Assembly: GCA_026874595.1 (NCBI GenBank) | Contig: CM049309.1 | Coordinates: 90,728,723 to 90,792,722 of the forward strand | Reading direction: 5' to 3' | DNA: 64,000 nucleotides | Source: Sipunculus nudus | Taxonomy: Eukaryota; Annelida; Sipuncula; Golfingiida; Sipunculidae | Shown: positions 12,717-64,000 of the stretch, piece after piece | How the letters are laid out: each line of letters starts with the position of its first letter | How positions within the stretch are numbered: position 1 is the stretch's first letter | Program-made: the position numbers and the translations under genes | The notes under the pieces: model-generated | The model's input: the letters and a program-made list of their open reading frames with translations, nothing else | Databases searched by the model: none | What the model was told of the DNA's origin: nothing

Positions 12717-12810
12717 TTATATATTCAGTATAATGATAAGCAAGGCAAGGATCTTACATGTCGGAACAGAAGAGCTATTATTGTATTCAGTGTTCAAGCT
12801 GTCAGTATGT

Positions 12811-37455: not shown

Positions 37456-40011
37456 GTGACATTACGGTTTGATAAAAAGGCCCATTTCTCGAAAAATCAG
37501 CGGGGACTCGAGTAGTGCTGCGTCACATTTGCAAACCGAGTCCAAAAAGTCTAGTTAAAATTCATATTATACAATTCTGAGATGGGCTGATGAAGCAGCC
37601 CGGACGCAGGTGTCACCTGTGTACGGAATTGCTCGAGCGTCTTTCGTAATATTCATTCATCCCTCATTCTTCCATTCATCCATTCGTCCATTTACATATG
37701 AAGCTACATTGCTTTACGTCATTGGGTCTTTTATGTTTTGCGTACCTGTAAACAATATGATAGTTAATTTCAAGATATGAGAACAAGGGACAGCCCTGCT
37801 AGTATGTAGCCTACCATATTTGTCCTTGAGTGGAACAAATTTCTTTGCTTAGCAGATTTCTTCGGGTAAACTTTTGCCTTACTGTAAAAAAAATGTGTAA
37901 ATGATCTTTCAGGTTCATTTAGCGATGTGCACTTCCGTTGCAGGTGATATAAACCAGAGAACTTCCTTCTGGCGGCGAGAACTGGCTTGTTGCTAGGGGA
38001 TATTTTGTTTTGCTTAATAAGCATCACGGCCGCTGGATACACGGTGTCATCGTGATGAAACTCTGTTTAGAGTTCCCACAAGCAAACCGTGCATACGGAC
38101 AGAAATACTTGGGATGGATTGTCTTTAGGTTTAAGTCCTAATTATATCCGTATACGAAAATAGGGGAAGGGTTGGGGGAGGAGGGGCTGACCGTTTAGGA
38201 AACACATCTGTCCTGGAGCATGCCAACCATGTAAAGGAGCGTGAACCAGTTTGTGACGGACAAAGCCTAACCCTGTTTGAGGATATTGATAATTCGTTGT
38301 ACTTGTTTCAGCTACAATACATGATGCCCTCTGAGAGCCAGGGAGCCGCCCATCAGATCCGTTTACGGTCTCCTGGGAAATAAACGGACGGGTCTATTTG
38401 TACAAGTAGAGCCGTCTGATACTCCGATTTAAGTGGGGCCATAATTCCTCGCACCACCGTGCACCCCCTCATCTCTGTTTTTTTTTTATCTAATCAGTTA
38501 TTTGAACCAGATAAACACAGCCTGACATTGAAAACCACATGAATCAAATGACCCTGTTTTTATCCCCCCCTCAGATACCATTTATTAATAGTAATTTCAA
38601 TTTATAGCCGCTAATCGCTCGGCAGGAAGAAGTTGAAAGAACAAATTCAAAGACTGCAGCTGAAAGTTTCCCCTGAATCAAGGGCAATAAATCCATTTTT
38701 GAAATGACATAAGCGGCTCTTATGCGGCACCTCGCGTATCAGATAATCCTTGCCGCTTGTGTTTGTCCCGATAAGGTCAATCTATAATCCTCGTGCTGAA
38801 TTGCTACGTCTGAGCAAACGGTGATTTGTAATCGGTTGGATAAATAATAACATTGAAATCAAATTAGTCACTATCGCTGCGCGTTTTCATTGCCTCCGGC
38901 ATAGCTACAATCGCTTCTCATTGACCGACCAGGGCGCTTTTTTTTGCGCTCAAGACAAGAAGTATCTAATTTGTTGTGGATATTATGATAATGTCATTCT
39001 ATTTTTAAGGTAGGAAATCGAATCAGGACAAAAATTAATATTTTGCCGGTGGGTACATTTCTTACAGGAGCAATTGAATGGAAACTAAAAAATAATTTAA
39101 ACAACCGTCTTTGATCAACCAAACGGGCACAAAGAACTGAGGGCAAACGTACTTATGTGACACGCATCAGAGAACCTTAAGACCAGAGAACAGGAGAAAC
39201 TCGCCAGGGCGTGGATTATCTTTATATTGTATTTTGCTTTTCTAATACTCATGCTCTTCTAAAAACAGTGAATCGTACAAGAAAATCTTGCCTTGCTTTA
39301 ACACCCAAAGATAATGATGATTACAATAAAGATAATTACATTAGTAATTTTTTTTAATAGTAAATATTACAACAAAGATTATTACAATAGTGATTATTAC
39401 AATAGTGATAATTATAAATCGTATGCCCGATTACTCACAGAGAAAAACTGATTTAACGAAAGAGTACTTTTTCGTTATGTAAACTATTCCTTATTATATT
39501 TCTTATAATAAACTATGGTATTATGGTATTTTGGAAAGGGAATTATAGGAGCTGTTTTAATCTCCCTTTATGGAAATATTTCAAAATATAAATCCTTAAT
39601 GGAACATTTGAGACACATTTTTTTATAAATACATGGAATTCGTTCCTAAATCACTACAATATACCACGATTCTTAATAAAAACGTTCTAAATGTATATGC
39701 AGTGTCTATACCCTTCCGCCAGAGGTCGTTTCTACTCATAAAGAACCTCTTCCGGTTAGGCAGCATCGGAACTACTTGTGTCGACTGTTTACTTTAAAAT
39801 AAAGTTTGTTACATTTTAGGGAAACACCTTCTGCTTACATTTCATATGTGTATGCTTACAAAATGTTACTTATTCCGTGAAATCCTTCCCACAAAACAAC
39901 CCATGTTTATATAATTTGACTTGAATGTATATTATTATTAACATATTTGAACGGACTGCATTACCCTCTTCACTACATTAATACCTACCCCGCTTGTGTA
40001 TTTGAAAGCCG
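37456..40011. other. gene-free stretch; 38,560-38,960 unusually complex
   Basis: No exon is supported. An (ATTC)-like run is near 37,650-37,700 and AT-rich trinucleotide-like DNA at 39,310-39,420. The block at about 38,560-38,960 has higher complexity and GC than its flanks, several ATTA and GATAAG motifs, and no repeat signature. It could be a conserved non-coding element, which cannot be tested here. Confidence 0.4.
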
Positions 40012-40503
40012 CAATGCATTGTGGGTGGTAGATTGAGAAGCCCACAAACCCTACCAGCAGAGTCATACTCTCGTGCGTCCGATTGTGCAGTGTGCAGTGT
40101 CTATTTTAAATATCGCCCGGTATTTGATAACCAATGTAAGTCTCCTTACATTCAAGTAGAAGTATAAGCAAGTTCTTTCAAGTCATGTCATCAGGTTTAT
40201 TTTTAAATAAATGATCTTATAAACTGCGTATACATTACGTTTATACGGATGTGTAGAAATCCTCCATATATATTCCTGCTGCGTCACTTATACTTTACCC
40301 TCATAGCCACGCGCCGTCAAAGCGGGAATGGGTATCTAAGTGTACTTGTGCGGTGAAATATAAATATCAAAGAGTGTATTGGTGTTTAATGATGACAAAC
40401 CTAACATAACGATCAGTGGAAAGGCCCGCCAACGCGGAGCGCAAACTCAAGACAAATAGTGTAAGATCGGGCGGGGGCGCGGGCTCTGCGGAAACTAGCG
40501 AGG
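40012..40503 (+). promoter_or_regulatory. promoter / first-exon-like island next to the satellite
   Basis: GCAATGCATTGTGGGTGGTAG (around 40,011-40,031) read on the other strand resembles the ZNF143/SBF promoter motif. GC content rises through 40,300-40,500 (CACGCGCCGTC, GGGCGGGGGCGCGGGC). The island ends in AGCGAG|GTACGT at about 40,503, a good donor. The last 29 codons before the donor are open and begin ERPANAERKLKTNS, but the only nearby ATGs are not in that frame, so coding status is unknown. If real, this is the 5' end of a plus-strand transcript whose first intron would contain the 57-bp satellite. Confidence 0.25.
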
Positions 40504-41059
40504 TACGTCTGATGAGTCATAGTCTTATAGTGTACTCTCTGAGAAATACGTACAAAGGGGATCTTTTCTGTCTTTGTAACATTGAGAAGAGGAGAAAGGG
40601 CTTGTCTTGTGAGACTTCAAACACGCGTGGAGATGAAGTGATTACATATAAAAGCTTCTATGTATGGCAGTATCGTTTAGTATTCCAGGCAGCTTGTTAC
40701 AGAAATTGGTACAAATATAACAATCGTGACACAGATCGCAAACAGAGACAAAAGAAATTCTCAAGCATTCCTTGCAAATCATACCTTGCAAAATAAAAAA
40801 AAATAAAAGAGAGAACACGAGTTATCACAACATCCTAACCTCATTGATGGAGGCCAAGGTGACATGAAACTGCCTAAGAAACAACATTTTAAGCTTTGGT
40901 TGGTTTATTAGCCTCATAAACACATTCCTAAAACTGTAACTTGTTTTTCTCTATGAATTTCTCTATTAGGCCATCAGTCCTTCACCAGTTACAGTTTCAA
41001 ACAATGTAATCATATCTAAGTTAAAGAGAATATGCGCCAAATTTTACTCGGCATCGTCA
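40504..41059. other. gene-free flank of the satellite
   Basis: An open plus-strand frame runs to about 40,796 without recognisable features. The remainder to the array edge is unique-looking AT-rich DNA. Confidence 0.5.
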
Positions 41060-42390
41060 AAATATTGGAGGTATCATCCTGTTGTCTCTGGTAGAGACAA
41101 ATAAGAATGCTCAAGGAGATAGTGGTAATATCAACCTGCTGTCTCTGGTCGAGGCCAATAAGAATACTCAGGTAGATGGTGGTGATATCATCCTGTTGTT
41201 TTTGGTAGAGATAAATAAGAATACTCAGGTAGATAGTGGTGATATCATCCTGTTGTCTCTGGTAGAGATAAATAAGAATGTTCAGGTAGATGGTGGTGAT
41301 ATCATCCTGTTGTTTTTGGTAGAGATAAATAAGAATACTCAGGTAGATGGTGGTGATATCATCCTGTTGTCTTTGGTCGAGGCCAATAGGAATACTCGGG
41401 TAGATAGTGGTGATATCATCCTGTTGTCTTTGGTAGAGATAAAAAAGAATGCTCAGGTAGATGGGGGTTGATATCATCCTGTTGTTTTTGGTAGAGATAA
41501 AAAAGAATGCTCAGGTAGATGGTGGTGATATCATCCTGTTGTTTTTGGTAGAGATAAAAAAGAATGCTCAGGTAGATGGTGGTGATATCATCTTGTTGTC
41601 TTTGGTAGAGATAAAAAAGAATGCTCAGGTAGATGGTGGTGATATCTTCCTGTTGTCTTTGGTAGAGATAAAAAAGAATGCTCAGGTAGATGGTGGTGAT
41701 ATCATCCTGTTGTCTTTGGTAGAGATAAAAAAAGAATGCTCAGGTAGATGGTGGTGATATCACCCTGTTGTCTTTGGTAGAGATAAAAAAAAATGCTCAG
41801 GTAGATGGTGGTGATATCATCCTGTTGTTTTTGGTAGAGATAAAAAAGAATACTCAGGTAGATGGTGGTGATATCTTCCTGTTGTCTTTGGTCGAGATAA
41901 AAAAGAATGCTCAGGTAGATGGTGGTGATTTCATCCTGTTGTCTTTGATAGAGATAAAAAAGAATGCTCAGGTAGATGGTGGTGATATCATCCTGTTGTC
42001 TTTGGTAGAGATAAAAAAGACTGCTCAGGTAGATGGTGGTGATATCATCCTGTTGTCTTTGGTAGAGATAAAAAAGAATGCTCAGGTAGATGGTGGTGAT
42101 ATCATCCTGTTGTTTTTGGTAGAGATAAATAAGAATACTCAGGTAGATGGTGGTGATATCATCCTGTTGTCTTTGGTCGAGGCCAATAAGAATACTCGGG
42201 TAGATAGTGGTGATATCTTCCTGTTGTCTTTGGTAGAGATAAAAAGGAATGCTCAGGTAGATGGTGGTGATATCATCCTGTTGTTTTTGGTAGAGATAAA
42301 AAAGAATACTCAGGTAGATGGTGGTGATATCTTCCTGTTGTCTTTGGTCGAGGCCAATAAAAATACTCGGGTAGATAGTGGTGATATCAT

Positions 42391-42960
42391 CCTGCTGTCT
42401 CTGGTAGAGATAAATAAGAATACTCAGGTAGACGGTGGTGATATCATCCTGTTGTTTCTGGTAGAGATAAATAAGAATGCTCAGGTAGATGGTGGTGATA
42501 TCATCCTGTTGTTTTTGGTAGAGATAAAAAAGAATGCTCAGGTAGATAGTGGTGATATCATCCTGTTGTTTTTGGTAGAGATAAAAAAGAATGCTCAGGT
42601 AGATGGTGGTGATATCATCCTGTTGTTTTTGGTAGAGATAAAAAGGAATGCTCAGGTAGATGGTGGTGATATCATCCTGTTGTCTCTGGTAGAGATTAAC
42701 AAGAATGCTCAGGTAGATGGTGGTGATATCATCCTGTTGTTTTTCGTAGGGATAAATAAGAATACTAAGGTAGACAGTGGTGATATCTTCCTGTTGTCTC
42801 TGGTAGAGATAAATAAGAATGCTCAGGTAGATGGTGGTGATATCATCCTGTTGTTTTTGGTAGAGATAAAAAAGAATACTCAGGTAGATGGTGGTGATAT
42901 CTTCCTGTTGTCTTTGGTCGAGGCCAATAAGAATACTCGGGTAGATAGTGGTGATATCAT
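42391..42960 (+). repeat. 570-bp higher-order unit (10 monomers), example copy
   Basis: Monomers fall into subtypes recognised by their tails: EIKKNAQ, EINKNAQ, EINKNTQ, EANKNTR and FVGINKNTK. The marker CCTGCTGTCTCTGG recurs at 42,391, 42,961, 43,703, 44,387, 44,957, 45,983, 46,496, 47,640, 48,780 and 49,864. Spacings of exactly 570 occur twice (42,391-42,961 and 44,387-44,957). The others are multiples of 57 with small offsets (684, 1,026, 513, 1,140). The order of subtypes is preserved between units, so a 10-monomer higher-order repeat exists, with frequent gain and loss of single monomers. Confidence 0.8.
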
Positions 42961-43159
42961 CCTGCTGTCTCTGGTAGAGATAAATAAGAATACTCAGGTA
43001 GACGGTGGTGATATCATCCTGTTGTTTCTGGTAGAGATAAAAAAGAATGCTCAGGTAGATGGTGGTGATATCATCCTGTTGTTTTTGGTAGAGATAAAAA
43101 AGAATGCTCAGGTAGATAGTGGTGATATCATCCTGTTGTTTTTGGTAGAGATAAAAAAG

Positions 43160-46100
43160 AATGCTCAGGTAGATGGTGGTGATATCATCCTGTTGTTTTT
43201 GGTAGAGATAAAAAAGAATGCTCAGGTAGATGGTGGTGATATCATCCTGTTGTCTCTGGTAGAGATTAATAAGAATGCTCAGGTAGGTGGTGGTGATATC
43301 ATCCCGTTGTCTTTGGTCGAGGCCAATAAGAATACTCGGGTAGATAGTGGTGATATCTTCCTGTTGTCTTTGGTTGAGATAAAAAAGAATGCTCAGGTAG
43401 ATGGGGGTTGATATCATCCTGTTGTTTTTGGTAGAGATAAAAAAGAATGCTCAGGTAGATGGTGGTGATATCATCCTGTTGTTTTTCGTAGGGATAAATA
43501 AGAATACTCAGGTAGACAGTGGTGATATCTTCCTGTTGTCTCTGGTAGAGATAAATAAGAATGCTCAGGTAGATGGTGGTGATATCATCCTGTTGTTTTT
43601 GGTAGAGATAAAAAAGAATACTCAGGTAGATGGTGGTGATATCTTCCTGTTGTCTTTGGTCGAGGCCAATAAGAATACTCGGGTAGATAGTGGTGATATC
43701 ATCCTGCTGTCTCTGGTAGAGATAAATAAGAATACTCAGGTAGACGGTGGTGATATCATCCTGTTGTTTCTGGTAGAGATAAATAAGAATGCTCAGGTAG
43801 ATGGTGGTGATATCATCCTGTTGTTTTTGGTAGAGATAAAAAAGAATGCTCAGGTAGATATTGGTGATATCATCCTGTTGTTTTTGGTAGAGATAAAAAA
43901 GAATGCTCAGGTAGATGGTGGTGATATCATCCTGTTGTTTTTGGTAGAGATAAAAAAGAATGCTCAGGTAGATGGTGGTGATTTCATCCTGTTGTCTCTG
44001 GTAGAGATTAATAAGAATGCTCAGGTAGATGGTGGTGATATCATCCTGTTGTCTTTAGTCGAGGCCAATAAGAATACTCGGGTAGATAGTGGTGATATCT
44101 TCCTGTTGTCTTTGGTAGAGATAAAAAAGAATGCTCAGGTAGATGGTGGTGATATCATTCTGTTGTTTTTGGTAGAGATAAATAAGAATACTCAGGTAGA
44201 CAGTGGTGATATCTTCCTGTTGTCTCTGGAAAAGATAAATAAGAATGCTCAGGTAGATGGTGGTGATATCATCCTGTTGTTTTTGGTAGAGATAAAAAAG
44301 AATACTCAGGTAGATGGTGGTGATATCTTCCTGTTGTCTTTGGTCGAGGCCAATAAAAATACTCGGGTAGATAGTAGTGATATCATCCTGCTGTCTCTGG
44401 TAGAGATAAATAAGAATACTCAGGTAGACGGTGGTGATATCATCCTGTTGTTTCTGGTAGAGATAAATAAGAATGCTCAGGTAGATGGTGGTGATATCAT
44501 CCTGTTGTTTTTGGTAGAGATAAAAAAGAATGCTCAGGTAGATAGTGGTGATATCATCCTGTTGTTTTAGGTAGAGATAAAAAAGAATGCTCAGGTAGAT
44601 GGTGGTGATATCATCCTGTTGTTTTTGGTAGAGATAAAAAGGAATGCTCAGGTAGATGGTGGTGATATCATCCTGTTGTCTCTGGTAGAGATTAATAAGA
44701 ATGCTCAGGTAGATGGTGGTGATATCATCCTGTTGTTTTTCGTAGGGATAAATAAGAATACTAAGGTAGACAGTGGTGATATCTTCCTGTTGTCTCTGGT
44801 AGAGATAAATAAGAATGCTCAGGTAGATGGTGGTGATATCATCCTGTTGTTTTTGGTAGAGATAAAAAAGAATACTCAGGTAGATGGTGGTGATATCTTC
44901 CTGTTGTCTTTGGTCGAGGCCAATAAGAATACTCGGGTAGATAGTGGTGATATCATCCTGCTGTCTCTGGTAGAGATAAATAGGAATACTCAGGTAGACG
45001 GTGGTGATATCATCCTGTTGTTTCTGGTAGAGATAAAAAAGAATGCTCAGGTAGATGGTGGTGATATCATCCTGTTGTTTTTGGTAGAGATAAAAAAGAA
45101 TGCTCAGGTAGATAGTGGTGATATCATCCTGTTGTTTTTGGTAGAGATAAAAAAGAATGCTCAGGTAGATGGTGGTGATATCATCCTGTTGTTTTTGGTA
45201 GAGATAAAAAAGAATGCTCAGGTAGATGGTGGTGATATCATCCTGTTGTCTCTGGTAGAGATTAATAAGAATGCTCAGGTAGATGGTGGTGATATCATCC
45301 TGTTGTCTTTGGTCGAGGCCAATAAGAATACTCGGATAGATAGTGGTGATATCATCCTGTTGTCTTTGGTTGAGATAAAAAAGAATGCTCAGGTAGATGG
45401 TGGTGATATCATCCTGTTGTTTTTGGTAGAGACAAAAAAGAATGCTCAGGTAGATGGTGGTGATATCATCCTGTTGTTTTTGGTAGAGATAAAAAAGAAT
45501 GCTCAGATAGATGGTGGTGATATCATCCTGTTGTCTCTGGTAGAGATTAATAAGAATGCTCAGGTAGATGGTGGTGATATCATCCTGTTGTTTTTCGTAG
45601 GGATAAATAAGAATACTCAGGTAGACAGTGGTGATATCTTCCTGTTGTCTCTGGTAGAGATAAATAAGAATGCTCAGGTAGATGGTGGTGATATCATCCT
45701 GTTGTCTCTGGTAGAGATTAATAAGAATGCTCAGGTAGAGGGTGGTGATATCATCCTGTTGTTTTTCGTAGGGATAAATAAGAATACTCAGGTAGACAGT
45801 GGTGATATCTTCCTGTTGTCTCTGGTAGAGATAAATAAGAATGCTCAGGTAGATGGTGGTGATATCATCCTGTTGTTTTTGGTAGAGATAAAAAAGAATA
45901 CTCAGGTAGATGGTGGTGATATCTTCCTGTTGTCTTTGGTCGAGGCCAATAAGAATACTCGGGTAGATAGTGGTGATATCATCCTGCTGTCTCTGGTAGA
46001 GATAAATAAGAATACTCAGGTAGACGGTGGTGATATCATCCTGTTGTTTCTGGTAGAGATAAATAAGAATGCTCAGGTAGATGGTGGTGATATCATCCTG

Positions 46101-49100
46101 TTGTTTTTGGTAGAGATAAAAAAGAATGCTCAGGTAGATAGTGGTGATATCATCCTGTTGTTTTTGGTAGAGATAAAAAAGAATGCTCAGGTAGATGGTG
46201 GTGATATCATCCTGTTGTTTTTGGTAGAGATAAAAAAGAATGCTCAGGTAGATGGTGGTGATATCATCCTGTTGTCTCTGGTAGAGATTAATAAGAATGC
46301 TCAGGTAGATGGTGGTGATATCATCCTGTTGTCTTTAGTCGAGGCCAATAAGAATACTCGGGTAGATAGTGGTGATATCTTCCTGTTGTCTTTGGTAGAG
46401 ATAAAAAAGAATGCTCAGGTAGATGGTGGTGATATCATCCTGTTGTTTTTGGTAGAGATAAATAAGAATACTCAGGTAGATAGTGGTGATATCATCCTGC
46501 TGTCTCTGGTAGAGATAAATAAGAATACTCAGGTAGACGGTGGTGATATCATCCTGTTGTTTCTGGTAGAGATAAAAAAGAATGCTCAGGTAGATGGTGG
46601 TGATATCATCCTGTTGTTTTTGGTAGAGATAAAAAAGAATGCTCAGGTAGATAGTGGTGATATCATCCTGTTGTTTTTGGTAGAGATAAAAAAGAATGCT
46701 CAGGTAGATGGTGGTGATATCATCCTGTTGTTTTTGGTAGAGATAAAAAAGAATGCTCAGGTAGATGGTGGTGATATCATCCTGTTGTCTCTGGTAGAGA
46801 TTAATAAGAATGCTCAGGTAGATGGTGGTGATATCACCCTGTTGTCTTTGGTCGAGGCCAATAAGAATACTCGGGTAGATAGTGGTGATATCATCCTGTT
46901 GTCTTTGGTTGAGATAAAAAAGAATGCTCAGGTAGATGGTGGTGATATCATCCTGTTGTTTTTGGTAGAGATAAGAAAGATTGCTCAGGTAGGTAGATGG
47001 TGGTGATATCATCCTGTTGTTTTTGGTAGAGACAAAAAAGAATGCTCAGGTAGATGTTGGTGATATCATCCTGTTGTTTTTGGTAGAGATAAAAAAGAAT
47101 GCTCACATAGATGGTGGTGATATCATCCTGTTGTCTCTGGTAGAGATTAATAAGAATGCTCAGGTAGATGGTGGTGATATCATCCTGTTGTTTTTCGTAG
47201 GGATAAAAAAGAATGCTCAGGTAGATGGTGGTGATATCATCCTGTTGTTTTTCGTAGGGATAAAAAAGAATGCTCAGGTAGATGGTGGTGATATCATCCT
47301 GTTGTTTTTCGTAGGGATAAAAAAGAATGCTCAGGTAGATGGTGGTGATATCATCCTGTTGTTTTTCGTAGGGATAAAAAAGAATGCTCAGGTAGATGTT
47401 GGTGATATCATCCTGTTGTTTTTGGTAGAGATAAAAAAGAATGCTCACATAGATGGTGGTGATATCATCCTGTTGTCTCTGGTAGAGATTAATAAGAATG
47501 CTCAGGTAGATGGTGGTGATATCATCCTGTTGTTTTTCGTAGGGATAAAAAAGAATACTCAGGTAGATGGTGGTGATATCTTCCTGTTGTCTTTGGTCGA
47601 GGCCAATAAGAATACTCGGGTAGATAGTGGTGATATCATCCTGCTGTCTCTGGTAGAGATAAATAAGAATACTCAGGTAGACGGTGGTGATATCATCCTG
47701 TTGTTTCTGGTAGAGATAAATAAGAATGCTCAGGTAGATGGTGGTGATATCATCCTGTTGTTTTTGGTAGAGATAAAAAAGAATGCTCAGGTAGATAGTG
47801 GTGATATCATCCTGTTGTTTTTGGTAGAGATAAAAAAGAATGCTCAGGTAGATGGTGGTGATATCATCCTGTTCTTTTTGGTAGAGATAAAAAAGAATGC
47901 TCAGGTAGATGTTGGTGATATCATCCTGTTGTCTCTGGTAGAGATTAATAAGAATGCTCAGGTAGATGGTGGTGATATCATCCTGTTGTCTTTAGTCGAG
48001 GCCAATAAGAATACTCGGGTAGATAGTGGTGATATCTTCCTGTTGTCTTTGGTAGAGATAAAAAAGAATGCTCAGGTAGATGGTGGTGATATCATCCTGT
48101 TGTTTTTGGTAGAGATAAATAAGAATACTCAGGTAGAGAGTGGTGATATCTTCCTGTTGTCTCTGGAAGAGATAAATAAGAATGCTCAGGTAGATGGTGG
48201 TGATATCATCCTGTTGTTTTTGGTAGAGATAAAAAAAGAATGCTCAGGTAGATGGTGGTGATATCATCCTGTTGTCTCTGGTAGAGATTAATAAGAATTC
48301 TCAGGTAGATGGTGGTGATATCATCCTGTTGTCTTTGGTAGAGATAAATAAGAATGCTCAGGTAGATGGTGGTGATATCATCCTGTTGTCTTTGGTAGAG
48401 ATAAAAAAGAATGCTCAGGTAGATGGTGGTGATATCATCCTGTTGTCTTTGGTAGAGATAAAAAAGAAGGCTCAGTTAGATAGTGGATAGTCATCCTGTT
48501 GTCTCTGGTAGAGATTAATAAGAATGCTCAGGTAGATGGTGGTGATATCATCCTGTTGTTTTTCGTAGGGATAAATAAGAATACTCAGGTAGACAGTGGT
48601 GATATCTTCCTGTTGTCTCTGGTAGAGATAAATAAGAATGCTCAGGTAGATGGTGGTGATATCATTCTGTTCTTTTTGGTAGAGATAAAAAAGAATACTC
48701 AGGTAGATGGTGGTGATATCTTCCTGTTGTCTTTGGTCGAGGCCAAGAAGAATACTCGGGTAGATAGTGGTGATATCATCCTGCTGTCTCTGGTAGAGAT
48801 AAATAAGAATACTCAGGTAGACGGTGGTGATATCATCCTGTTGTTTCTGGTAGAGATAAATAAGAATGCTCAGGTAGATGGTGGTGATATCATCCTGTTG
48901 TTTTTGGTAGAGATAAAAAAGAATGCTCAGGTAGATAGTGGTGATATCATCCTGTTGTTTTTGGTAGAGATAAAAAAGAATGCTCAGGTAGATGGTGGTG
49001 ATATCATCCTGTTCTTTTTGGTAGAGATAAAAAAGAATGCTCAGGTAGATGGTGGTGATATCATCCTGTTGTCTCTGGTAGAGATTAATAAGAATGCTCA

Positions 49101-49320
49101 GGTAGATGGTGGTGATATCATCCTGTTGTCTTTAGTCGAGGCCAATAAGAATACTCGGGTAGATAGTGGTGATATCTTCCTGTTGTCTTTGGTAGAGATA
49201 AAAAAGAATGCTCAGGTGGATGGTGGTGATATCATCCTGTTGTTTTTGGTAGAGATAAATAAGAATACTCAGGTAGACAGTGGTGATATCTTCCTGTTGT
49301 CTCTGGAAGAGATAAATAAG
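43160..49320 (+). repeat. 6,161-bp satellite segment, copy 1 of a tandem duplication
   Basis: This block is repeated at +6,161. The two 795-codon frames (44,619 and 50,780) translate identically. The 389-codon frames (43,401 and 49,562) differ at one residue (EKIN versus EEIN at about 44,230). Even indels and the TAG stop are shared. Copy 1 has an extra 342 bp (six monomers, about 47,050-47,395) with four successive FVGIKKNAQ-type units; copy 2 lacks it. The junction cannot be placed more finely than about 60 bp because both sides are the same satellite. Confidence 0.9.
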
Positions 49321-52300
49321 AATGCTCAGGTAGATGGTGGTGATATCATCCTGTTGTTTTTGGTAGAGATAAAAAAGAATGCTCAGGTAGATGGTGGTGA
49401 TATCATCCTGTTGTCTCTGGTAGAGATTAATAAGAATGCTCAGGTAGGTGGTGGTGATATCATCCCGTTGTCTTTGGTCGAGGCCAATAAGAATACTCGG
49501 GTAGATAGTGGTGATATCATCCTGTTGTCTTTGGTTGAGATAAAAAAGAATGCTCAGGTAGATGGGGGTTGATATCATCCTGTTGTTTTTGGTAGAGATA
49601 AAAAAGAATGCTCAGGTAGATGGTGGTGATATCATCCTGTTGTTTTTCGTAGGGATAAATAAGAATACTCAGGTAGACAGTGGTGATATCTTCCTGTTGT
49701 CTCTGGTAGAGATAAATAAGAATGCTCAGGTAGATGGTGGTGATATCATCCTGTTGTTTTTGGTAGAGATAAAAAAGAATACTCAGGTAGATGGTGGTGA
49801 TATCTTCCTGTTGTCTTTGGTCGAGGCCAATAAGAATACTCGGGTAGATAGTGGTGATATCATCCTGCTGTCTCTGGTAGAGATAAATAAGAATACTCAG
49901 GTAGACGGTGGTGATATCATCCTGTTGTTTCTGGTAGAGATAAATAAGAATGCTCAGGTAGATGGTGGTGATATCATCCTGTTGTTTTTGGTAGAGATAA
50001 AAAAGAATGCTCAGGTAGATATTGGTGATATCATCCTGTTGTTTTTGGTAGAGATAAAAAAGAATGCTCAGGTAGATGGTGGTGATATCATCCTGTTGTT
50101 TTTGGTAGAGATAAAAAAGAATGCTCAGGTAGATGGTGGTGATTTCATCCTGTTGTCTCTGGTAGAGATTAATAAGAATGCTCAGGTAGATGGTGGTGAT
50201 ATCATCCTGTTGTCTTTAGTCGAGGCCAATAAGAATACTCGGGTAGATAGTGGTGATATCTTCCTGTTGTCTTTGGTAGAGATAAAAAAGAATGCTCAGG
50301 TAGATGGTGGTGATATCATCCTGTTGTTTTTGGTAGAGATAAATAAGAATACTCAGGTAGACAGTGGTGATATCTTCCTGTTGTCTCTGGAAGAGATAAA
50401 TAAGAATGCTCAGGTAGATGGTGGTGATATCATCCTGTTGTTTTTGGTAGAGATAAAAAAGAATACTCAGGTAGATGGTGGTGATATCTTCCTGTTGTCT
50501 TTGGTCGAGGCCAATAAAAATACTCGGGTAGATAGTAGTGATATCATCCTGCTGTCTCTGGTAGAGATAAATAAGAATACTCAGGTAGACGGTGGTGATA
50601 TCATCCTGTTGTTTCTGGTAGAGATAAATAAGAATGCTCAGGTAGATGGTGGTGATATCATCCTGTTGTTTTTGGTAGAGATAAAAAAGAATGCTCAGGT
50701 AGATAGTGGTGATATCATCCTGTTGTTTTAGGTAGAGATAAAAAAGAATGCTCAGGTAGATGGTGGTGATATCATCCTGTTGTTTTTGGTAGAGATAAAA
50801 AGGAATGCTCAGGTAGATGGTGGTGATATCATCCTGTTGTCTCTGGTAGAGATTAATAAGAATGCTCAGGTAGATGGTGGTGATATCATCCTGTTGTTTT
50901 TCGTAGGGATAAATAAGAATACTAAGGTAGACAGTGGTGATATCTTCCTGTTGTCTCTGGTAGAGATAAATAAGAATGCTCAGGTAGATGGTGGTGATAT
51001 CATCCTGTTGTTTTTGGTAGAGATAAAAAAGAATACTCAGGTAGATGGTGGTGATATCTTCCTGTTGTCTTTGGTCGAGGCCAATAAGAATACTCGGGTA
51101 GATAGTGGTGATATCATCCTGCTGTCTCTGGTAGAGATAAATAGGAATACTCAGGTAGACGGTGGTGATATCATCCTGTTGTTTCTGGTAGAGATAAAAA
51201 AGAATGCTCAGGTAGATGGTGGTGATATCATCCTGTTGTTTTTGGTAGAGATAAAAAAGAATGCTCAGGTAGATAGTGGTGATATCATCCTGTTGTTTTT
51301 GGTAGAGATAAAAAAGAATGCTCAGGTAGATGGTGGTGATATCATCCTGTTGTTTTTGGTAGAGATAAAAAAGAATGCTCAGGTAGATGGTGGTGATATC
51401 ATCCTGTTGTCTCTGGTAGAGATTAATAAGAATGCTCAGGTAGATGGTGGTGATATCATCCTGTTGTCTTTGGTCGAGGCCAATAAGAATACTCGGATAG
51501 ATAGTGGTGATATCATCCTGTTGTCTTTGGTTGAGATAAAAAAGAATGCTCAGGTAGATGGTGGTGATATCATCCTGTTGTTTTTGGTAGAGACAAAAAA
51601 GAATGCTCAGGTAGATGGTGGTGATATCATCCTGTTGTTTTTGGTAGAGATAAAAAAGAATGCTCAGATAGATGGTGGTGATATCATCCTGTTGTCTCTG
51701 GTAGAGATTAATAAGAATGCTCAGGTAGATGGTGGTGATATCATCCTGTTGTTTTTCGTAGGGATAAATAAGAATACTCAGGTAGACAGTGGTGATATCT
51801 TCCTGTTGTCTCTGGTAGAGATAAATAAGAATGCTCAGGTAGATGGTGGTGATATCATCCTGTTGTCTCTGGTAGAGATTAATAAGAATGCTCAGGTAGA
51901 GGGTGGTGATATCATCCTGTTGTTTTTCGTAGGGATAAATAAGAATACTCAGGTAGACAGTGGTGATATCTTCCTGTTGTCTCTGGTAGAGATAAATAAG
52001 AATGCTCAGGTAGATGGTGGTGATATCATCCTGTTGTTTTTGGTAGAGATAAAAAAGAATACTCAGGTAGATGGTGGTGATATCTTCCTGTTGTCTTTGG
52101 TCGAGGCCAATAAGAATACTCGGGTAGATAGTGGTGATATCATCCTGCTGTCTCTGGTAGAGATAAATAAGAATACTCAGGTAGACGGTGGTGATATCAT
52201 CCTGTTGTTTCTGGTAGAGATAAATAAGAATGCTCAGGTAGATGGTGGTGATATCATCCTGTTGTTTTTGGTAGAGATAAAAAAGAATGCTCAGGTAGAT

Positions 52301-55140
52301 AGTGGTGATATCATCCTGTTGTTTTTGGTAGAGATAAAAAAGAATGCTCAGGTAGATGGTGGTGATATCATCCTGTTGTTTTTGGTAGAGATAAAAAAGA
52401 ATGCTCAGGTAGATGGTGGTGATATCATCCTGTTGTCTCTGGTAGAGATTAATAAGAATGCTCAGGTAGATGGTGGTGATATCATCCTGTTGTCTTTAGT
52501 CGAGGCCAATAAGAATACTCGGGTAGATAGTGGTGATATCTTCCTGTTGTCTTTGGTAGAGATAAAAAAGAATGCTCAGGTAGATGGTGGTGATATCATC
52601 CTGTTGTTTTTGGTAGAGATAAATAAGAATACTCAGGTAGATAGTGGTGATATCATCCTGCTGTCTCTGGTAGAGATAAATAAGAATACTCAGGTAGACG
52701 GTGGTGATATCATCCTGTTGTTTCTGGTAGAGATAAAAAAGAATGCTCAGGTAGATGGTGGTGATATCATCCTGTTGTTTTTGGTAGAGATAAAAAAGAA
52801 TGCTCAGGTAGATAGTGGTGATATCATCCTGTTGTTTTTGGTAGAGATAAAAAAGAATGCTCAGGTAGATGGTGGTGATATCATCCTGTTGTTTTTGGTA
52901 GAGATAAAAAAGAATGCTCAGGTAGATGGTGGTGATATCATCCTGTTGTCTCTGGTAGAGATTAATAAGAATGCTCAGGTAGATGGTGGTGATATCACCC
53001 TGTTGTCTTTGGTCGAGGCCAATAAGAATACTCGGGTAGATAGTGGTGATATCATCCTGTTGTCTTTGGTTGAGATAAAAAAGAATGCTCAGGTAGATGG
53101 TGGTGATATCATCCTGTTGTTTTTGGTAGAGATAAGAAAGATTGCTCAGGTAGGTAGATGGTGGTGATATCATCCTGTTGTTTTTGGTAGAGACAAAAAA
53201 GAATGCTCAGGTAGATGTTGGTGATATCATCCTGTTGTTTTTGGTAGAGATAAAAAAGAATGCTCACATAGATGGTGGTGATATCATCCTGTTGTCTCTG
53301 GTAGAGATTAATAAGAATGCTCAGGTAGATGGTGGTGATATCATCCTGTTGTTTTTCGTAGGGATAAAAAAGAATACTCAGGTAGATGGTGGTGATATCT
53401 TCCTGTTGTCTTTGGTCGAGGCCAATAAGAATACTCGGGTAGATAGTGGTGATATCATCCTGCTGTCTCTGGTAGAGATAAATAAGAATACTCAGGTAGA
53501 CGGTGGTGATATCATCCTGTTGTTTCTGGTAGAGATAAATAAGAATGCTCAGGTAGATGGTGGTGATATCATCCTGTTGTTTTTGGTAGAGATAAAAAAG
53601 AATGCTCAGGTAGATAGTGGTGATATCATCCTGTTGTTTTTGGTAGAGATAAAAAAGAATGCTCAGGTAGATGGTGGTGATATCATCCTGTTCTTTTTGG
53701 TAGAGATAAAAAAGAATGCTCAGGTAGATGTTGGTGATATCATCCTGTTGTCTCTGGTAGAGATTAATAAGAATGCTCAGGTAGATGGTGGTGATATCAT
53801 CCTGTTGTCTTTAGTCGAGGCCAATAAGAATACTCGGGTAGATAGTGGTGATATCTTCCTGTTGTCTTTGGTAGAGATAAAAAAGAATGCTCAGGTAGAT
53901 GGTGGTGATATCATCCTGTTGTTTTTGGTAGAGATAAATAAGAATACTCAGGTAGAGAGTGGTGATATCTTCCTGTTGTCTCTGGAAGAGATAAATAAGA
54001 ATGCTCAGGTAGATGGTGGTGATATCATCCTGTTGTTTTTGGTAGAGATAAAAAAAGAATGCTCAGGTAGATGGTGGTGATATCATCCTGTTGTCTCTGG
54101 TAGAGATTAATAAGAATTCTCAGGTAGATGGTGGTGATATCATCCTGTTGTCTTTGGTAGAGATAAATAAGAATGCTCAGGTAGATGGTGGTGATATCAT
54201 CCTGTTGTCTTTGGTAGAGATAAAAAAGAATGCTCAGGTAGATGGTGGTGATATCATCCTGTTGTCTTTGGTAGAGATAAAAAAGAAGGCTCAGTTAGAT
54301 AGTGGATAGTCATCCTGTTGTCTCTGGTAGAGATTAATAAGAATGCTCAGGTAGATGGTGGTGATATCATCCTGTTGTTTTTCGTAGGGATAAATAAGAA
54401 TACTCAGGTAGACAGTGGTGATATCTTCCTGTTGTCTCTGGTAGAGATAAATAAGAATGCTCAGGTAGATGGTGGTGATATCATTCTGTTCTTTTTGGTA
54501 GAGATAAAAAAGAATACTCAGGTAGATGGTGGTGATATCTTCCTGTTGTCTTTGGTCGAGGCCAAGAAGAATACTCGGGTAGATAGTGGTGATATCATCC
54601 TGCTGTCTCTGGTAGAGATAAATAAGAATACTCAGGTAGACGGTGGTGATATCATCCTGTTGTTTCTGGTAGAGATAAATAAGAATGCTCAGGTAGATGG
54701 TGGTGATATCATCCTGTTGTTTTTGGTAGAGATAAAAAAGAATGCTCAGGTAGATAGTGGTGATATCATCCTGTTGTTTTTGGTAGAGATAAAAAAGAAT
54801 GCTCAGGTAGATGGTGGTGATATCATCCTGTTCTTTTTGGTAGAGATAAAAAAGAATGCTCAGGTAGATGGTGGTGATATCATCCTGTTGTCTCTGGTAG
54901 AGATTAATAAGAATGCTCAGGTAGATGGTGGTGATATCATCCTGTTGTCTTTAGTCGAGGCCAATAAGAATACTCGGGTAGATAGTGGTGATATCTTCCT
55001 GTTGTCTTTGGTAGAGATAAAAAAGAATGCTCAGGTGGATGGTGGTGATATCATCCTGTTGTTTTTGGTAGAGATAAATAAGAATACTCAGGTAGACAGT
55101 GGTGATATCTTCCTGTTGTCTCTGGAAGAGATAAATAAGA
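49321..55140 (+). repeat. copy 2 of the duplication (5,819 bp after a 342-bp difference)
   Basis: Corresponds to copy 1 shifted by 6,161 up to about 53,340 and by 5,819 after the missing six monomers, as seen at 54,091 versus 48,272 and 54,318 versus 48,499. Identity is so high that the duplication must be very recent, or an assembly artefact. Confidence 0.9.
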
Positions 55141-57449
55141 ATGCTCAGGTAGATGGTGGTGATATCATCCTGTTGTTTTTGGTAGAGATAAAAAAGAATA
55201 CTCAGGTAGATGGTGGTGATATCTTCCTGTTGTCTTTGGTCGAGGCCAATAAAAATACTCGGATAGATAGTGGTGATATCATCCTGCTGTCTCTGGTAGA
55301 GATAAATAAGAATACTCAGGTAGACGGTGGTGATATCATCCTGTTGTTTCTGGTAGAGATAAATAAGAATGCTCAGGTAGATGGTGGTGATATCATCCTG
55401 TTGTTTTTGGTAGAGATAAAAAAGAATGCTCAGGTAGATAGTGGTGATATCATCCTGTTGTTTTTGGTAGAGATAAAAAAGAATGCTCAGGTAGATGGTG
55501 GTGATATCATCCTGTTGTTTTTGGTAGAGATAAAAAAGAATGCTCAGGTAGATGGTGGTGATATCATCCTGTTGTCTCTGGTAGAGATTAATAAGAATGC
55601 TCAGGTAGATGGTGGTGATATCATCCTGTTGTTTTTCGTAGGGATAAATAAGAATACTAAGGTAGACAGTGGTGATATCTTCCTGTTGTCTCTGGTAGAG
55701 ATAAATAACAATGCTCAGGTAGATGGTGGTGATATCATCCTGTTGTTTTTGGTAGAGATAAAAAAGAATACTCAGGTAGATGGTGGTGATATCTTCCTGT
55801 TGTCTTTGGTCGAGGCCAATAAGAATACTCGGGTAGATAGTGGTGATATCATCCTGCTGTCTCTGGTAGAGATAAATAAGAATACTCAGGTAGACGGTGG
55901 TGATATCATCCTGTTGTTTCTGGTAGAGATAAAAAAGAATGCTCAGGTAGATGGTGGTGATATCATCCTGTTGTTTTTGGTAGAGATAAAAAAGAATGCT
56001 CAGGTAGATAGTGGTGATATCATCCTGTTGTTTTTGGTAGAGATAAAAAAGAATGCTCAGGTAGATGGTGGTGATATCATCCTGTTGTTTTTGGTAGAGA
56101 TAAAAAAGAATGCTCAGGTAGATGGTGGTGATATCAACCTGTTGTCTCTGGTAGAGATTAATAAGAATGCTCAGGTAGATGGTGGTGATATCATCCTGTT
56201 GTCTTTGGTCGAGGCCAATAAGAATACTCGGGTAGATAGTGGTGATATCATCCTGTTGTCTTTGGTTGAGATAAAAAAGAATGCTCAGGTAGATGGTGGT
56301 GATATCATCCTGTTGTTTTTGGTAGAGATAAAAAAGATTGCTCAGGTAGGTAGATGGTGGTGATATCATCCTGTTGTCTTTGGTAGAGATAAAAAAAAAT
56401 GATCAGGTAGATGGTGGTGATATCATCCTGTTGTTTTTGGTAGAGATAAAAAAAGAATGCTCAGGTAGATGGTGGTGATATCATCCTGTTGTCTCTGGTA
56501 GAGATTAATAAGAATTCTCAGGTAGATGGTGGTGATATCATCCTGTTGTCTTTGGTAGAGATAAATAAGAATGCTCAGGTAGATGGTGGTGATATCATCC
56601 TGTTGTCTTTGGTAGAGATAAAAAAGAATGCTCAGGTAGATGGTGGTGATATCATCCTGTTGTTTTTGGTAGAGATAAAAAAGAATGCTCAGGTAGATGG
56701 TGGTGATATCATCCTGTTGTTTTTGGTAGAGATAAAAAAGAATGCTCAGGTAGATGGTGGTGATATCATCCTGTTGTTTTTGGTAGAGATAAATAAGAAT
56801 ACTCAGGTAGATTGTGGTGATATCATCCTGTTGTTTTTGGTAAAGATAAAAAAGAATACTCAGGTAGATGGTGGTGATACCTTCCTGTTGTCTTTGGTCG
56901 AGGCCAATAAGAATACTCGGGTAGATAGTGGTGAAATCATCCTGTTGTCTTTGGTAGAGATAAAAAAGAATGCTCAGGCAGATGGTGGTGATATCACCCT
57001 GTCGTTTTTGGTAGAGATAAAAAAGAATACTCAGGTAGATGGTGGTGATATCTTCCTGTTGTATTTGGTCGAGGCCAATAAGAATAGTCGGGTAGATAGT
57101 GGTGATATCATCCTGTTGTCTTTGGTAGAGATAAAAAAGAATGCTCAGGTAGATGGTAGTGATATCATCCTGTTGTTTTTGGTAGAGATAAAAAAGAATG
57201 CTCAGGTAGATGGTGGTGATATCATCCTGTTGTTTTTGGTAGAGATAAAAAAGAATGCTCAGGCAGATGGTGGTGATATCATCCTGTTGTTTTTGGAAGA
57301 GATAAAAAAGAATACTCAGGTAGATGGTGGTGATATCATCCTGTTGTTTTTGGTAGAGATAAAAAAGAACGCTCAGGCAGATGGTGGTGATATCTTCCTG
57401 TTGTCTTTGGTAGAGATAAAAAAGAATGCTCAGGTAGATGGTGGTGATA

Positions 57450-60400
57450 TCATCCTGTTGTTTTTGCTAGAGATAAAAAAGAATGCTCAGGTAGATGGTG
57501 GCGATATCATCCTGTTTTTTTTGGTAGAGATAAAAAAGAATGCTCAGGTAGATGGTGGTGATATCATCCTGTTGTTTTTGGTAGAGATAAAAAAGAATGC
57601 TCAGGTAGATGGTGGTGATATCATCCTGTTGTTTTTGGTAGAGATAAAAAAGAATGCTCAGGTAGATGGTGGTGATATCTTCCTGTTGTCTTTGGTAGAG
57701 ATAAAAAAGAATGCTCAGGTAGATGGTGGTGATATCTTCCTGTTGTCTTTGGTAGAGATAAAAAAGAATGCTCAGGTAGATGGTGGTGATATCATCCTGT
57801 TGTTTTTGGTAGAGAAAAAAAGGATGCTCAGGTAGATGGTGGTGATATCATCCTGTTGTTTTTGGTAGAGATAAAAAAGAATGCTGAGGTAGATGGTGGT
57901 GATATCATCCTGTTGTTTTTGGTAGAGATAAAAAAGAATGCTCAGGTAGATGGTGGTGATATCATCCTGTTGTTTTTGGTAGAGATAAAAAAGAATGCTC
58001 AGGTAGATGGTGGTGATATCTTCCTGTTGTTTTTGGTAGAGATAAAAAAGAATGCTCAGGCAGATGGTGGTGATATCTTCCTGTTGTCTTTGGTAGAGAT
58101 AAAAAAGAATACTCAGGTAGATGGTGGTGATATCTTCCTGTTGTCTTTGGAAGAGATAAAAAAGAATGCTCAGGTAGATGGTGGTGATATCATCCTGTTG
58201 TCTTTGGTCGAGGCCAATAAGAATACTCGGGTAGATGGTGGTGATATCTTCCTGTTGTCTTTGGTAGAGATAAAAAAGAATGCTCAGGTAGATGGTGGTG
58301 ATATCATCCTGTTGTCTTTGGTCGAGGCCAATAAGAATACTCGGGTAGATGGTGGTGATATCTTCCTGTTGTTTTTGGTAGAGATAAAAAAGAATGCTCA
58401 GGTAGATGGTGGTGATATCTTCCTGTTGTTTTTGGTAGAGATAAAAAAAGAATACTCAGGTAGATAGTGGTGATATCATCCTGTTGTCTTTGGTCGAGGC
58501 CAATAAGAATACTCGGGTAGATGGTGGTGATATCTTCCTGTTGTCTTTGGTAGAGATAAAAAAGAATGCTCAGGCAGATGGTGGTGATATCTTTCTGTTG
58601 TCTTTCGTCGAGGCCAATAAGAATACTCGGGTAGATGGTGGTGATATCTTCCTGTTGTTTTTGGTAGAGATAAAAAAGAATGCTCAGGTAGATAGTGGTG
58701 ATATCATCCTGTTGTCTTTGGTCGAGGCCAATAAGAATACTCGGGTAGATGGTGGTGATATCTTCCTGTTGTCTTTGGTAGAGATAAAAAAGAATGCTCA
58801 GGTAGATGGTGGTGATATCTTCCTGTTGTTTTTGGTAGAGATAAAAAAGAATACTCAGGTAGATAGTGGTGATATCATCCTGTTGTCTTTGGTCGAGGCC
58901 AATAAGAATACTCGGGTAGATGGTGGTGATATCTTCCTGTTGTCTTTGGTAGAGATAAAAAAGAATGCTCAGGTAGATGGTGATGATATCATCCTGTTGT
59001 CTTTGGTCGAGGCCAATAAGAATACTCGGGTAGATAGTGGCGATATCATCCTGTTGTCTTTGGTCGAGGCCAATAAGAATACTCAGGTAGATGGTGGTGA
59101 TATCTTCCTGTTGTCTTTGGTCGAGATAAAAAAGAATGCTCAGGTAGATGGTGGTGATATCATCCTGTTGTCTTTGGTAGAGATAAAAAAGAATGCTCAG
59201 GTAGATGGTGGTGATATCATCCTGTTGTTTCTGGTAGAGATAAAAAGGAATGCTCAGGCAGATGGTGGTGATATCTTCTTGTTGTCTTTGGTAGAGATAA
59301 AAAAGAATACTCAGGTAGATGGTGGTGATATTTTCCTGTTGTCTTTGGTAGAGATAAAAAAGAATACTCAGGTAGATGGTGGTGATATCTTCCTGTTGTC
59401 TTTGGTAGAGATAAAAAAGAATGCTCAGGTAGATGGTGGTGATATCATCCTGTTGTTTTTGGTAGAGATAAAAAAGAATGCTCAGGCAGATGGTGGTGAT
59501 ATCTTCCTGTTGTCTTTGGTAGAGATAAAAAAGAATACTCAGGTAGATGGTGGTGATATCTTCCTGTTGTCTTTGGTAGAGATAAAAAAGAATACTCAGG
59601 TAGATGGTGGTGATATCTTCCTGTTGTCTTTGGTAGAGATAAAAAAGAATGCTCAGGTAGATGGTGGTGATATCATCCTGTTGTTTTTGGTCGAGACCAA
59701 TAATAATACTCGGGTAGATAGTGGTGATATCATCATGTTGTTATTGGTAGAGATAAAAAAGAATGCTCAGGTAGATGGTGGTGATTTCTTCCTGTTGTCT
59801 TTGGTAGAGATAAAAAAGAATACTCAGGTAGATGGTGGTGATATCTTCCTGTTGTCTTTGGTAGAGATAAAAAAGAATACTCAGGTAGATGGTGGTGATA
59901 TCTTCCTGTTGTCTTTGGTAGAGATAAAAAATAATGCTCAGGTAGATGGTGGTGATATCATCCTGTTGTTTTTGGTAGAGATAAAAAAGAATGCTGAGGT
60001 AGATGGTGGTGATATCATCCTGTTGTTTTTGGTAGAGATAAAAAAGAATGCTCAGGTAGATGGTGGTGATATCATCCTGTTGTTTTTGGTAGAGATAAAA
60101 AAGAATGCTCAGGTAGATGGTGGTGATTTCTTCCTGTTGTTTTTGGTAGAGATAAAAAAGAATGCTCAGGCAGATGGTGGTGATATCTTCCTGTTGTCTT
60201 TGGTAGAGATAAAAAAGAATACTCAGGTAGATGGTGGTGATATCTTCCTGTTGTCTTTGGTAGAGATAAAAAAGAATGCTCAGGTAGATGGTGGTGATAT
60301 CATCCTGTTGTCTTTGGTCGAGGCCAATAAGAATATTCGGGTAGATGGTGGTGATATCTTCCTGTTGTCTTTGGTAGAGATAAAAAAGAATCCTCAGGTA

Positions 60401-60928
60401 GATGGTGGTGATATCATCCTGTTGTCTTTGGTCGAGGCCAATAAGAATACTCGGGTAGATGGTGGTGATATCTTCCTGTTGTTTTTGGTAGAGATAAAAA
60501 AAGAATGCTCAGGTAGATGGTGGTGATATCTTCCTGTTGTTTTTGGTAGAGATAAAAAAGAATGCTCAGGTAGATGGTGGTGATATCATCCTGTTGTTTT
60601 TGGTAGATATAAAAAAGAATGCTCAGGCAGATGGTGGTGATATCATCCTGTTGTTTTTGGTCGAGATAAAAAAGAATACTCAGGTTGATGGTGGTGATAT
60701 CATCCTGTTGTTTTTGGTAGAGATAAAAAAGAATGCTCAGGCAGATGGTGGTGATATCTTCCTGTTGTCTTTGGTAGAGATAAAAAAGAATGCTCAGGTA
60801 GATGGTGGTGATATCTTCCTGTTGTCTTTGGTAGAGATAAAAAAGAATGCTCAGGTAGATGGTGGTGATATCATCCTGTTGTCTCTGGTAGAGATAAATA
60901 AGAATACTCAGGTAGATAGTGGTGATAT
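57450..60928 (+). repeat. 3,479-bp distal-domain satellite segment, copy 1
   Basis: ATGCTGAGGT, a rare variant of ATGCTCAGGT, is at 57,881 and 61,360 (offset 3,479). The interrupted frame starts at 58,484 and 61,963 show the same offset. A third, partial version of the same monomer order is centred on 59,991-60,526. Left of about 57,400 the EINKN subtypes dominate; here EIKKN with DIFLLS and EANKNTR with DGG dominate, so the array has two compositional domains. Confidence 0.8.
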
Positions 60929-63000
60929 CTTCCTGTTGTTTTTGGTAGAGATAAAAAAGAATGCTCAGGTAGATGGTGGTGATATCATCCTGTTGTTTTT
61001 GGTAGAGATAAAAAAGAATGCTCAGGTAGATGGTGGTGATATCATCCTGTTGTTTTTGGTAGAGATAAAAAAGAATGCTCAGGTAGATGGTGGTGATATC
61101 ATCCTGTTGTTTTTGGTAGAGATAAAAAAGAATGCTCAGGTAGATGGTGGTGATATCTTCCTGTTGTCTTTGGTAGAGATAAAAAAGAATGCTCAGGTAG
61201 ATGGTGGTGATATCTTCCTGTTGTCTTTGGTAGAGATAAAAAAGAATGCTCAGGTAGATGGTGGTGATATCATCCTGTTGTTTTTGGTAGAGATAAAAAA
61301 GAATGCTCAGGTAGATGGTGGTGATATCATCCTGTTGTTTTTGGTAGAGATAAAAAAGAATGCTGAGGTAGATGGTGGTGATATCATCCTGTTGTTTTTG
61401 GTAGAGATAAAAAAGAATGCTCAGGTAGATGGTGGTGATATCATCCTGTTGTTTTTGGTAGAGATAAAAAAGAATTCTCAGGTAGATGGTGGTGATATCT
61501 TCCTGTTGTTTTTGGTAGAGATAAAAAAGAATGCTCAGGCAGATGGTGGTGATATCTTCCTGTTGTCTTTGGTAGAGATAAAAAAGAATACTCAGGTAGA
61601 TGGTGGTGATATCTTCCTGTTGTCTTTGGTAGAGATAAAAAAGAATGCTCAGGTAGATGGTGGTGATATCATCCTGTTGTCTTTGGTCGAGGCCAATAAG
61701 AATACTCGGGTAGATGGTGGTGATATCTTCCTGTTGTCTTTGGTAGAGATAAAAAAGAATGCTCAGGTAGATGGTGGTGATATCATCCTGTTGTCTTTGG
61801 TCGAGGCCAATAAGAATACTCGGGTAGATGGTGGTGATATCTTCCTGTTGTTTTTGGTAGAGATAAAAAAGAATGCTCAGGTAGATGGTGGTGATATCTT
61901 CCTGTTGTTTTTGGTAGAGATAAAAAAAGAATACTCAGGTAGATAGTGGTGATATCATCCTGTTGTCTTTGGTCGAGGCCAATAAGAATACTCGGGTAGA
62001 TGGTGGTGATATCTTCCTGTTGTCTTTGGTAGAGATAAAAAAGAATGCTCAGGCAGATGGTGGTGATATCTTCCTGTTGTCTTTGGTCGAGGCCAATAAG
62101 AATACTCGGGTAGATGGTGGTGATATCTTCCTGTTGTTTTTGGTAGAGATAAAAAAGAATGCTCAGGTAGATAGTGGTGATATCATCCTGTTGTCTTTGG
62201 TCGAGGCCAATAAGAATACTCGGCTAGATGGTGGTGATATCTTCCTGTTGTCTTTGGTAGAGATAAAAAAGAATGCTCAGGTAGATGGTGGTGATATCTT
62301 CCTGTTGTTTTTGGTAGAGATAAAAAAGAATACTCAGGTAGATAGTGGTGATATCATCCTGTTGTCTTTGGTCGAGGCCAATAAGAATACTCGGGTAGAT
62401 GGTGGTGATATCTTCCTGTTGTCTTTGGTAGAGATAAAAAAGAATGCTCAGGTAGATGGTGGTGATATCATCCTGTTGTCTTTGGTCGAGGCCAATAAGA
62501 ATACTCGGGTAGATAGTGGCGATATCATCCTGTTGTCTTTGGTCGAGGCCAATAAGAATACTCAGGTAGATGGTGGTGATATCTTCCTGTTGTCTTTGGT
62601 AGAGATAAAAAAGAATGCTCAGGCAGATGGTGGTGATATCTTCCTGTTGTCTTTGGTCGAGATAAAAAAGAATGCTCAGGTAGATGGTGGTGATATCATC
62701 CTGTTGTCTTTGGTAGAGATAAAAAAGAATGCTCAGGTAGATGGTGGTGATATCATCCTGTTGTTTTTGGTAGAGATAAAAAGGAATGCTCAGGCAGATG
62801 GTGGTGATATCTTCTTGTTGTCTTTGGTAGAGATAAAAAAGAATACTCAGGTAGATGGTGGTGATATTTTCCTGTTGTCTTTGGTAGAGATAAAAAAGAA
62901 TACTCAGGTAGATGGTGGTGATATCTTCCTGTTGTCTTTGGTAGAGATAACAAAAGAATGCTCAGGTAGATGTTGGTGATATCATCCTGTTGTTTTTGGT
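60929..63000 (+). repeat. 3,479-bp segment, copy 2 (partial, one monomer inserted)
   Basis: Matches copy 1 at +3,479 until about 62,600. One extra monomer (57 bp) then shifts the offset to 3,536, as shown by GATATCTTCTTGTTG at about 59,270 and 62,806. Beyond about 63,000 the order diverges. Confidence 0.75.
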
Positions 63001-64000
63001 AGAGGCCAATAAGAATACTCGGGTAGATAGTGGTGATATCATCCTGTTGTTTTTGGTAGAGATAAAAAAGAATGCTCAGGTAGATGGTGGTGATATCATC
63101 CTGTTGTTTTTGGTAGAGATAAAAAAGAATGCTCAGGTAGATGGTGGTGATATCTTCCTGTTGTCTTTGGTAGAGATAAAAAAGAATGCTCAGGTAGATG
63201 GTGGTGATATCTTCCTGTTGTCTTTGGTAGAGATAAAAAAGAATGCTCAGGTAGATGGTGGTGATATCATCCTGTTGTTTTTGGTAGAGATAAAAAAGAA
63301 TGCTCAGGTAGATGGTGGTGATATCATCCTGTTGTTTTTGATAGAGATAAAAAAGAATGCTCAGGCAGATGGTGGTGATATCTTCCTGTTGTCTTTGGTA
63401 GAGATAAAAAAGAATGCTCAGGTAGATGGTGGTGATATCATCCTGTTGTTTTTGGTAGAGATAAAAAAGAATGCTCAGGTAGATGGTGGTGATATCATCC
63501 TGTTGTTTTTGGTAGAGATAAAAAAGAATGCTCAGGTAAATGGTGGTGATATCATCCTGTTGTTTTTGGTAGAGATAAAAAAGAATACTCAGGTTGATGG
63601 TGGTGATATCATCCTGTTGTTTTTGGTCGAAGCCAATAAGAATACTCGGGTAGATAGTGGTGATATCATCCTGTTGTTTTTGGTAGAGATAAATAAGAAT
63701 ACTCAGGCAGATGGTGGTGATATCATCCTGTTGTTTTTGGTAGATATAAAAAAGAATACTCAGGTAGATGGTGGTGATATCTTCCTGTTGTTTTTGGTCG
63801 AGGCCAATAAGAATACTCGGGTAGATAGTGGTGATATCATCCTGTTGTCTTTGGTAGAGATAAAAAAGAATACTCAGGTAGATGGTGGTGATATCTTCCT
63901 GTTGTCTTTGGTAGAGATAAAAAAGAATGCTCAGGTAGATGGTGGTGATATCATCCTGTTGTCTTTGGTAGAGATAAAAAAAAATACTCAGGTAGATGGT

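Follow-up and report, generated by a model that had tools for sequence, protein, structure and literature searches.

Satellite and minisatellite arrays in general, and the satellitome of the bivalve Crassostrea gigas, offer the closest described points of comparison for the repeat studied here. The main text of the C. gigas study reports tandem arrays with units of 21 to 3287 bp that are scattered over the genome, and gives a longest array of 9 to 48 monomers in most of the inspected families (PMC8268682). The phrase "57 bp" was not found in that main text, the unit-length table lying outside the comparison, and "57 bp" was not found in the main text of PMC12818792. In the open-access literature, from which subscription papers are mostly missing, we recognised no named satellite family with a 57-bp unit. 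Where 57 bp does appear, the relevant part of PMC11620609 gives it as the length of a BLAST match, and the repeat of this length in the corresponding part of PMC2704214 is bacterial. Four 12-base words of the unit led to no paper on satellites by title; in the part of PMC4183541 that contains one of these words, it sits within a PCR primer.

Here we describe a 57-bp tandem array in a 64,000-nucleotide stretch of Sipunculus nudus DNA (the window). Exact patterns of the unit had no match in prokaryotic genome contigs or viral contigs, which says little on eukaryotic hosts, and a 469-base piece of the array had no match by blastn against plasmids and phages (a search with no positive control). 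The unit is not a common repeat in the prokaryotic and viral collections, and these negatives mean no more than that. An earlier note on this DNA, made from the letters alone, had called the unit unfamiliar; this stands in the sense that no named match was found, by the weak means of open-access text and prokaryotic and viral collections.

The 57-bp array and its internal organization

Tandem Repeats Finder placed the array at 41,072-64,000 (period 57, 401.9 copies, 90% matches), and wrap-around alignment resolved it into 401 full 57-bp monomers from 41,070, with a last one (from 63,947) cut at the window end. The consensus of the unit is GATATCATCCTGTTGTCTTTGGTAGAGATAAAAAAGAATGCTCAGGTAGATGGTGGT. 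Divergence of the 401 monomers from this consensus averages 6.05% and reaches 19.3%, and 123 distinct monomers are present. The entire stretch aligns to the plus-strand unit, so that the array is head-to-tail in a single orientation; its right end lies outside the window and its length is at least 23 kb. On the left the array begins at a sharp junction, the 57 bases directly before the first monomer matching the unit at 16 sites (15.3 expected). These results confirm the satellite array of about 23 kb that the earlier note had described, with a true start 10 bp later than the claimed 41,060.

41,070-64,000, plus strand: array of the 57-bp satellite, with 401 complete monomers and a truncated final one (Tandem Repeats Finder, wrap-around alignment)
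41,070-41,126, plus strand: first monomer, with a sharp junction to unrelated sequence (alignment to the unit)

One exact pattern of 27 bases from the unit matched 319 times in the window and never in 100 shuffles, and a second exact pattern matched 190 times. The array is far beyond chance, whereas the open frames that run through it are not. GC skew was 0.40 to 0.46 in each 2-kb step from 42,001, compared with -0.10 to 0.22 in the 2-kb steps of the flank. Searching the window with Rfam at gathering scores gave no match, and RNA folding of a single two-unit stretch gave z values of -1.30 and -0.29 for the two strands.

Three intermixed monomer types were distinguished, A (234 monomers), B (109) and C (58), and the sites that define type C are linked, with r2 reaching 0.92 for sites 28 and 44. 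Type agreement between monomers rose slightly over 0.510, the shuffle 99th percentile for the largest of lags 1-30, only at lags 5, 9, 20 and 27 (0.53, 0.518, 0.512 and 0.511, respectively), and by this measure no regular higher-order repeat was found in the array. Such a repeat is common, though not universal, in centromeric satellites; the array has long block duplications instead. The internal hierarchy proposed for it is borne out only in an irregular form, with three monomer types and large duplicated blocks but no regular higher-order unit.

The block duplications were recovered both by blast and by type lags. In the blast comparison, 42,983-47,248 pairs with 49,144-53,409 (4266 bp, 20 mismatches, 99.5% identical) and 47,333-49,416 pairs with 53,152-55,235 (2084 bp, 5 mismatches, 99.8% identical). 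Within these pairs the best-matching cores are a run of 71 monomers from 43,181 that recurs at 49,342 with 4 differences (lag 108) and a run of 35 monomers from 47,404 that recurs at 53,223 with 1 difference (lag 102), which leaves 5 differences between the two block copies over 71+35 best-matching monomers.

43,181-49,398, plus strand: duplicated block of about 6.2 kb, first copy, best-matching core (type lags 108 and 102, blast)
49,342-55,217, plus strand: second copy of the block, about 6 monomers shorter, overlapping the first by one monomer (type lags, blast)
54,310-56,349, plus strand: further partial copy of the block start, at 98.9-99.0% identity, beginning before the second copy ends (blast)

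Taken together the pieces make up a block about 6.2 kb long that, judged from the assembly rather than from reads, is duplicated in tandem, possibly through an assembly error. The duplication looks recent, and near-identical blocks of this kind are expected from unequal exchange or block conversion. Decay toward the edge of an array is also expected under unequal exchange. The first six monomers at the left edge differ from the consensus by a mean of 10.5%, against 6.05% overall, but the first 25 monomers average only 5.8% and 69 of the 401 monomers differ at seven or more sites; left-edge decay as support for exchange is not borne out by these counts.

Open frames, family matches and the coding question

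On each strand, one of the three frames of the 57-bp unit is open. Stop-to-stop frames reach 811 aa on the plus strand (two frames, 44,571-47,003 and 50,732-53,164) and 759 aa on the minus strand, close to the apparent proteins of up to 795 residues reported before.

50,732-53,164, plus strand: non-genic open frame of 811 aa, one of the two longest (stop-to-stop frames)

The claim that both strands are free of stops in one frame holds for the unit; it fails for the array, which 19 monomers with indels break up into many frames. With a unit length divisible by three, open frames on the two strands come as no surprise, and they would persist for as long as a unit of such length is free of stops in one frame per strand. 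Among units shuffled either by composition or by dinucleotides (5000 each), 39.4% of each set were likewise open on both strands. The open frames that drew the interest of the earlier note are a by-product of this unit length.

The variation among monomers was then compared with random placement of the same base changes. The 401 monomers carry 79 distinct substitutions at 52 positions. In the plus frame these comprise 21 synonymous, 57 nonsynonymous and 1 stop (expected 20.8, 55.6 and 2.65), and in the minus frame 17, 57 and 5, respectively (expected 20.1, 53.8 and 5.1); the single plus-frame stop variant against 2.65 expected is too small a number to tell from chance. Indels occur in 19 of the 401 monomers and are of seven kinds, four of +1 and one each of +4, -2 and -1, none a multiple of three. 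The -2 and one of the +1 indels lie in adjacent monomers and may be one event with a net change of -1. In the 398 deletion-free monomers, with inserted bases ignored, in-frame stops number 2 on the plus strand and 11 on the minus strand. Neither strand looks protein-constrained, and coding on either was rejected, the substitutions being near random placement and all seven indel kinds frame-shifting. A repeat protein would be expected to keep its frame, to change length in multiples of three and to be under purifying selection, and the array shows none of these.

Several of the open frames nevertheless pass Pfam cut-offs. Ribosomal_L14 was matched over its cut-off by the 811-aa plus frame (E 4.5e-13) and by a 362-aa plus frame (E 1.2e-8, three stretches individually below E 10), and the 759-aa minus frame passed the cut-offs for DUF4014, UNC45-central and DUF3953. 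Pure consensus repeats of the natural 19-residue unit also matched Ribosomal_L14 over the cut-off when 20 units were joined (E 2.4e-7); with 3 or 5 units there were matches below the cut-off only, and none to this family. As a control, eight scrambled 19-residue units were made and six of them, each repeated 20 times, were submitted to Pfam. Five of the six passed the cut-off for one or more unrelated families (lowest E value 2.2e-31), and one had no Pfam match at E 0.001. The matches on the array frames are unremarkable because repeats of scrambled units also pass the cut-offs, and both the Ribosomal_L14 match and the minus-strand families were rejected as a repeat effect. Compared with solved structures, the 811-aa frame had no match at E 0.01.

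Substitutions, indels and the scrambled control thus agree in showing no protein-coding constraint, and together with the long head-to-tail array of one unit they uphold the earlier assignment of the array to satellite DNA. The result carries a caution, in that satellites with a unit divisible by three can produce false long frames on both strands along with spurious family matches, such as the ribosomal-protein match at E 4.5e-13. Gene finders may call such frames proteins. As satellite DNA the array could be of use as a cytogenetic or length-polymorphism marker.

The left flank

Of the 15-mers in the 41-kb flank left of the array, 3.0% are repeated internally and none are common to the array, a count in which dispersed mobile elements would not show. 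A blastn search of this flank with three joined units gave matches of 10-12 bases only.

Other features were observed in the flank. A possible first coding exon was noted by eye at 1126-1212 on the plus strand (an ATG and 29 codons, ending in CAG with GTAAGT following); neither Pfam nor, at E 10, the PDB gave a match for it. If this putative exon is real, the position of the array may be within a long intron or past it. LINE-type remnants extend over three frames at 12,703-14,998 (plus strand), with RVT_1 in the first frame (E 1.3e-34), nothing in the second and zf-RVT just below the cut-off in the third. A second satellite-like array at 22,909-24,325 has a period of about 157 and a 332-bp dimer in 4.3 copies, with runs of G, and a 35-bp repeat at 30,401-30,680 is present in eight copies with 97% matches. 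The segment 38,280-38,960 is, by eye, a candidate conserved non-coding element. Three local duplications that look old, all within a range of about 72-75% identity, pair 20,124-20,371 with 20,609-20,851, 26,513-26,795 with 26,791-27,065, and 36,067-36,237 with 37,266-37,448.

Origin of the array and comparison with known satellites

Given the observed array, its variants, its duplications and a substitution pattern with no sign of coding constraint, we consider it very probable that this is a non-coding satellite of the minisatellite class, enlarged and homogenised through unequal exchange, replication slippage or both. Under such a process a 57-bp unit would have spread to 400 or more copies, and the variant monomers A, B and C would have been shuffled and copied in blocks, including one tandemly duplicated block about 6.2 kb long. 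The exchange mechanism is inferred, and so is the lack of a function that depends on the sequence.

The earlier note had likened the array to centromeric, heterochromatic or knob-like satellites in size, purity and internal hierarchy. It is unlikely that the array is part of a centromeric or heterochromatic block, present in very many genomic copies and bound by centromere or heterochromatin proteins. Its extent of 23 kb or more with a right end beyond the window, its low divergence and its block duplications are consistent with such a block, as is its CpG depletion (observed/expected 0.23 in the array vs 0.79 in the flank), though the consensus unit itself is without CpG. The 41-kb flank argues against it, as far as one flank can, with its low content of internally repeated 15-mers, none of them common to the array, and no scattered satellite copies. 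The array also lacks a regular higher-order repeat, and the window has no CENP-B-box-like site (0 at up to 3 mismatches, 0.19 expected), the motif used being of the mammal type.

We regard as more doubtful still the possibility that the array expanded where it stands from tandem repeats at the core of a mobile element, for example a Helitron. The main text of PMC8268682 describes tandem repeats within mobile elements as common in some invertebrates, for example the Pacific oyster. At the present locus, however, inverted pairs in 38,000-41,200 were few and weak (7 pairs, 14-20 nt), and self-comparison of the left 41 kb gave no direct repeat at the junction. No element termini were recognised on the left side of the array; the right side is beyond the window.

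Very improbable is a role in cis for what would be a large, perhaps single-locus, strongly G-skewed satellite next to putative gene-bearing sequence. If it were transcribed, such an array could give rise to R-loops and repeat RNA, and its length could differ from one individual to another.

That the array encodes, or in a now decayed form once encoded, a long plus-strand repeat protein of 19-residue units can be practically dismissed, since the open frames of up to 811 aa and the scarcity of plus-strand stops stand against substitution classes that fit random placement, indels that all shift the frame, comparable family matches from scrambled repeats and no match to a solved structure.

The 57-bp array is ordinary in kind, and its family is probably new and as yet unnamed. 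Like satellite and minisatellite arrays generally, it is arranged head-to-tail in one orientation with several per cent divergence, carries variant monomers in blocks and segmental duplications, and has no sign of coding constraint. It shares tandem arrays with the Crassostrea gigas satellitome, which as described in its main text has varied unit lengths and genome-wide scatter; unlike most of the families inspected there, the array described here runs to more than 400 monomers (PMC8268682).
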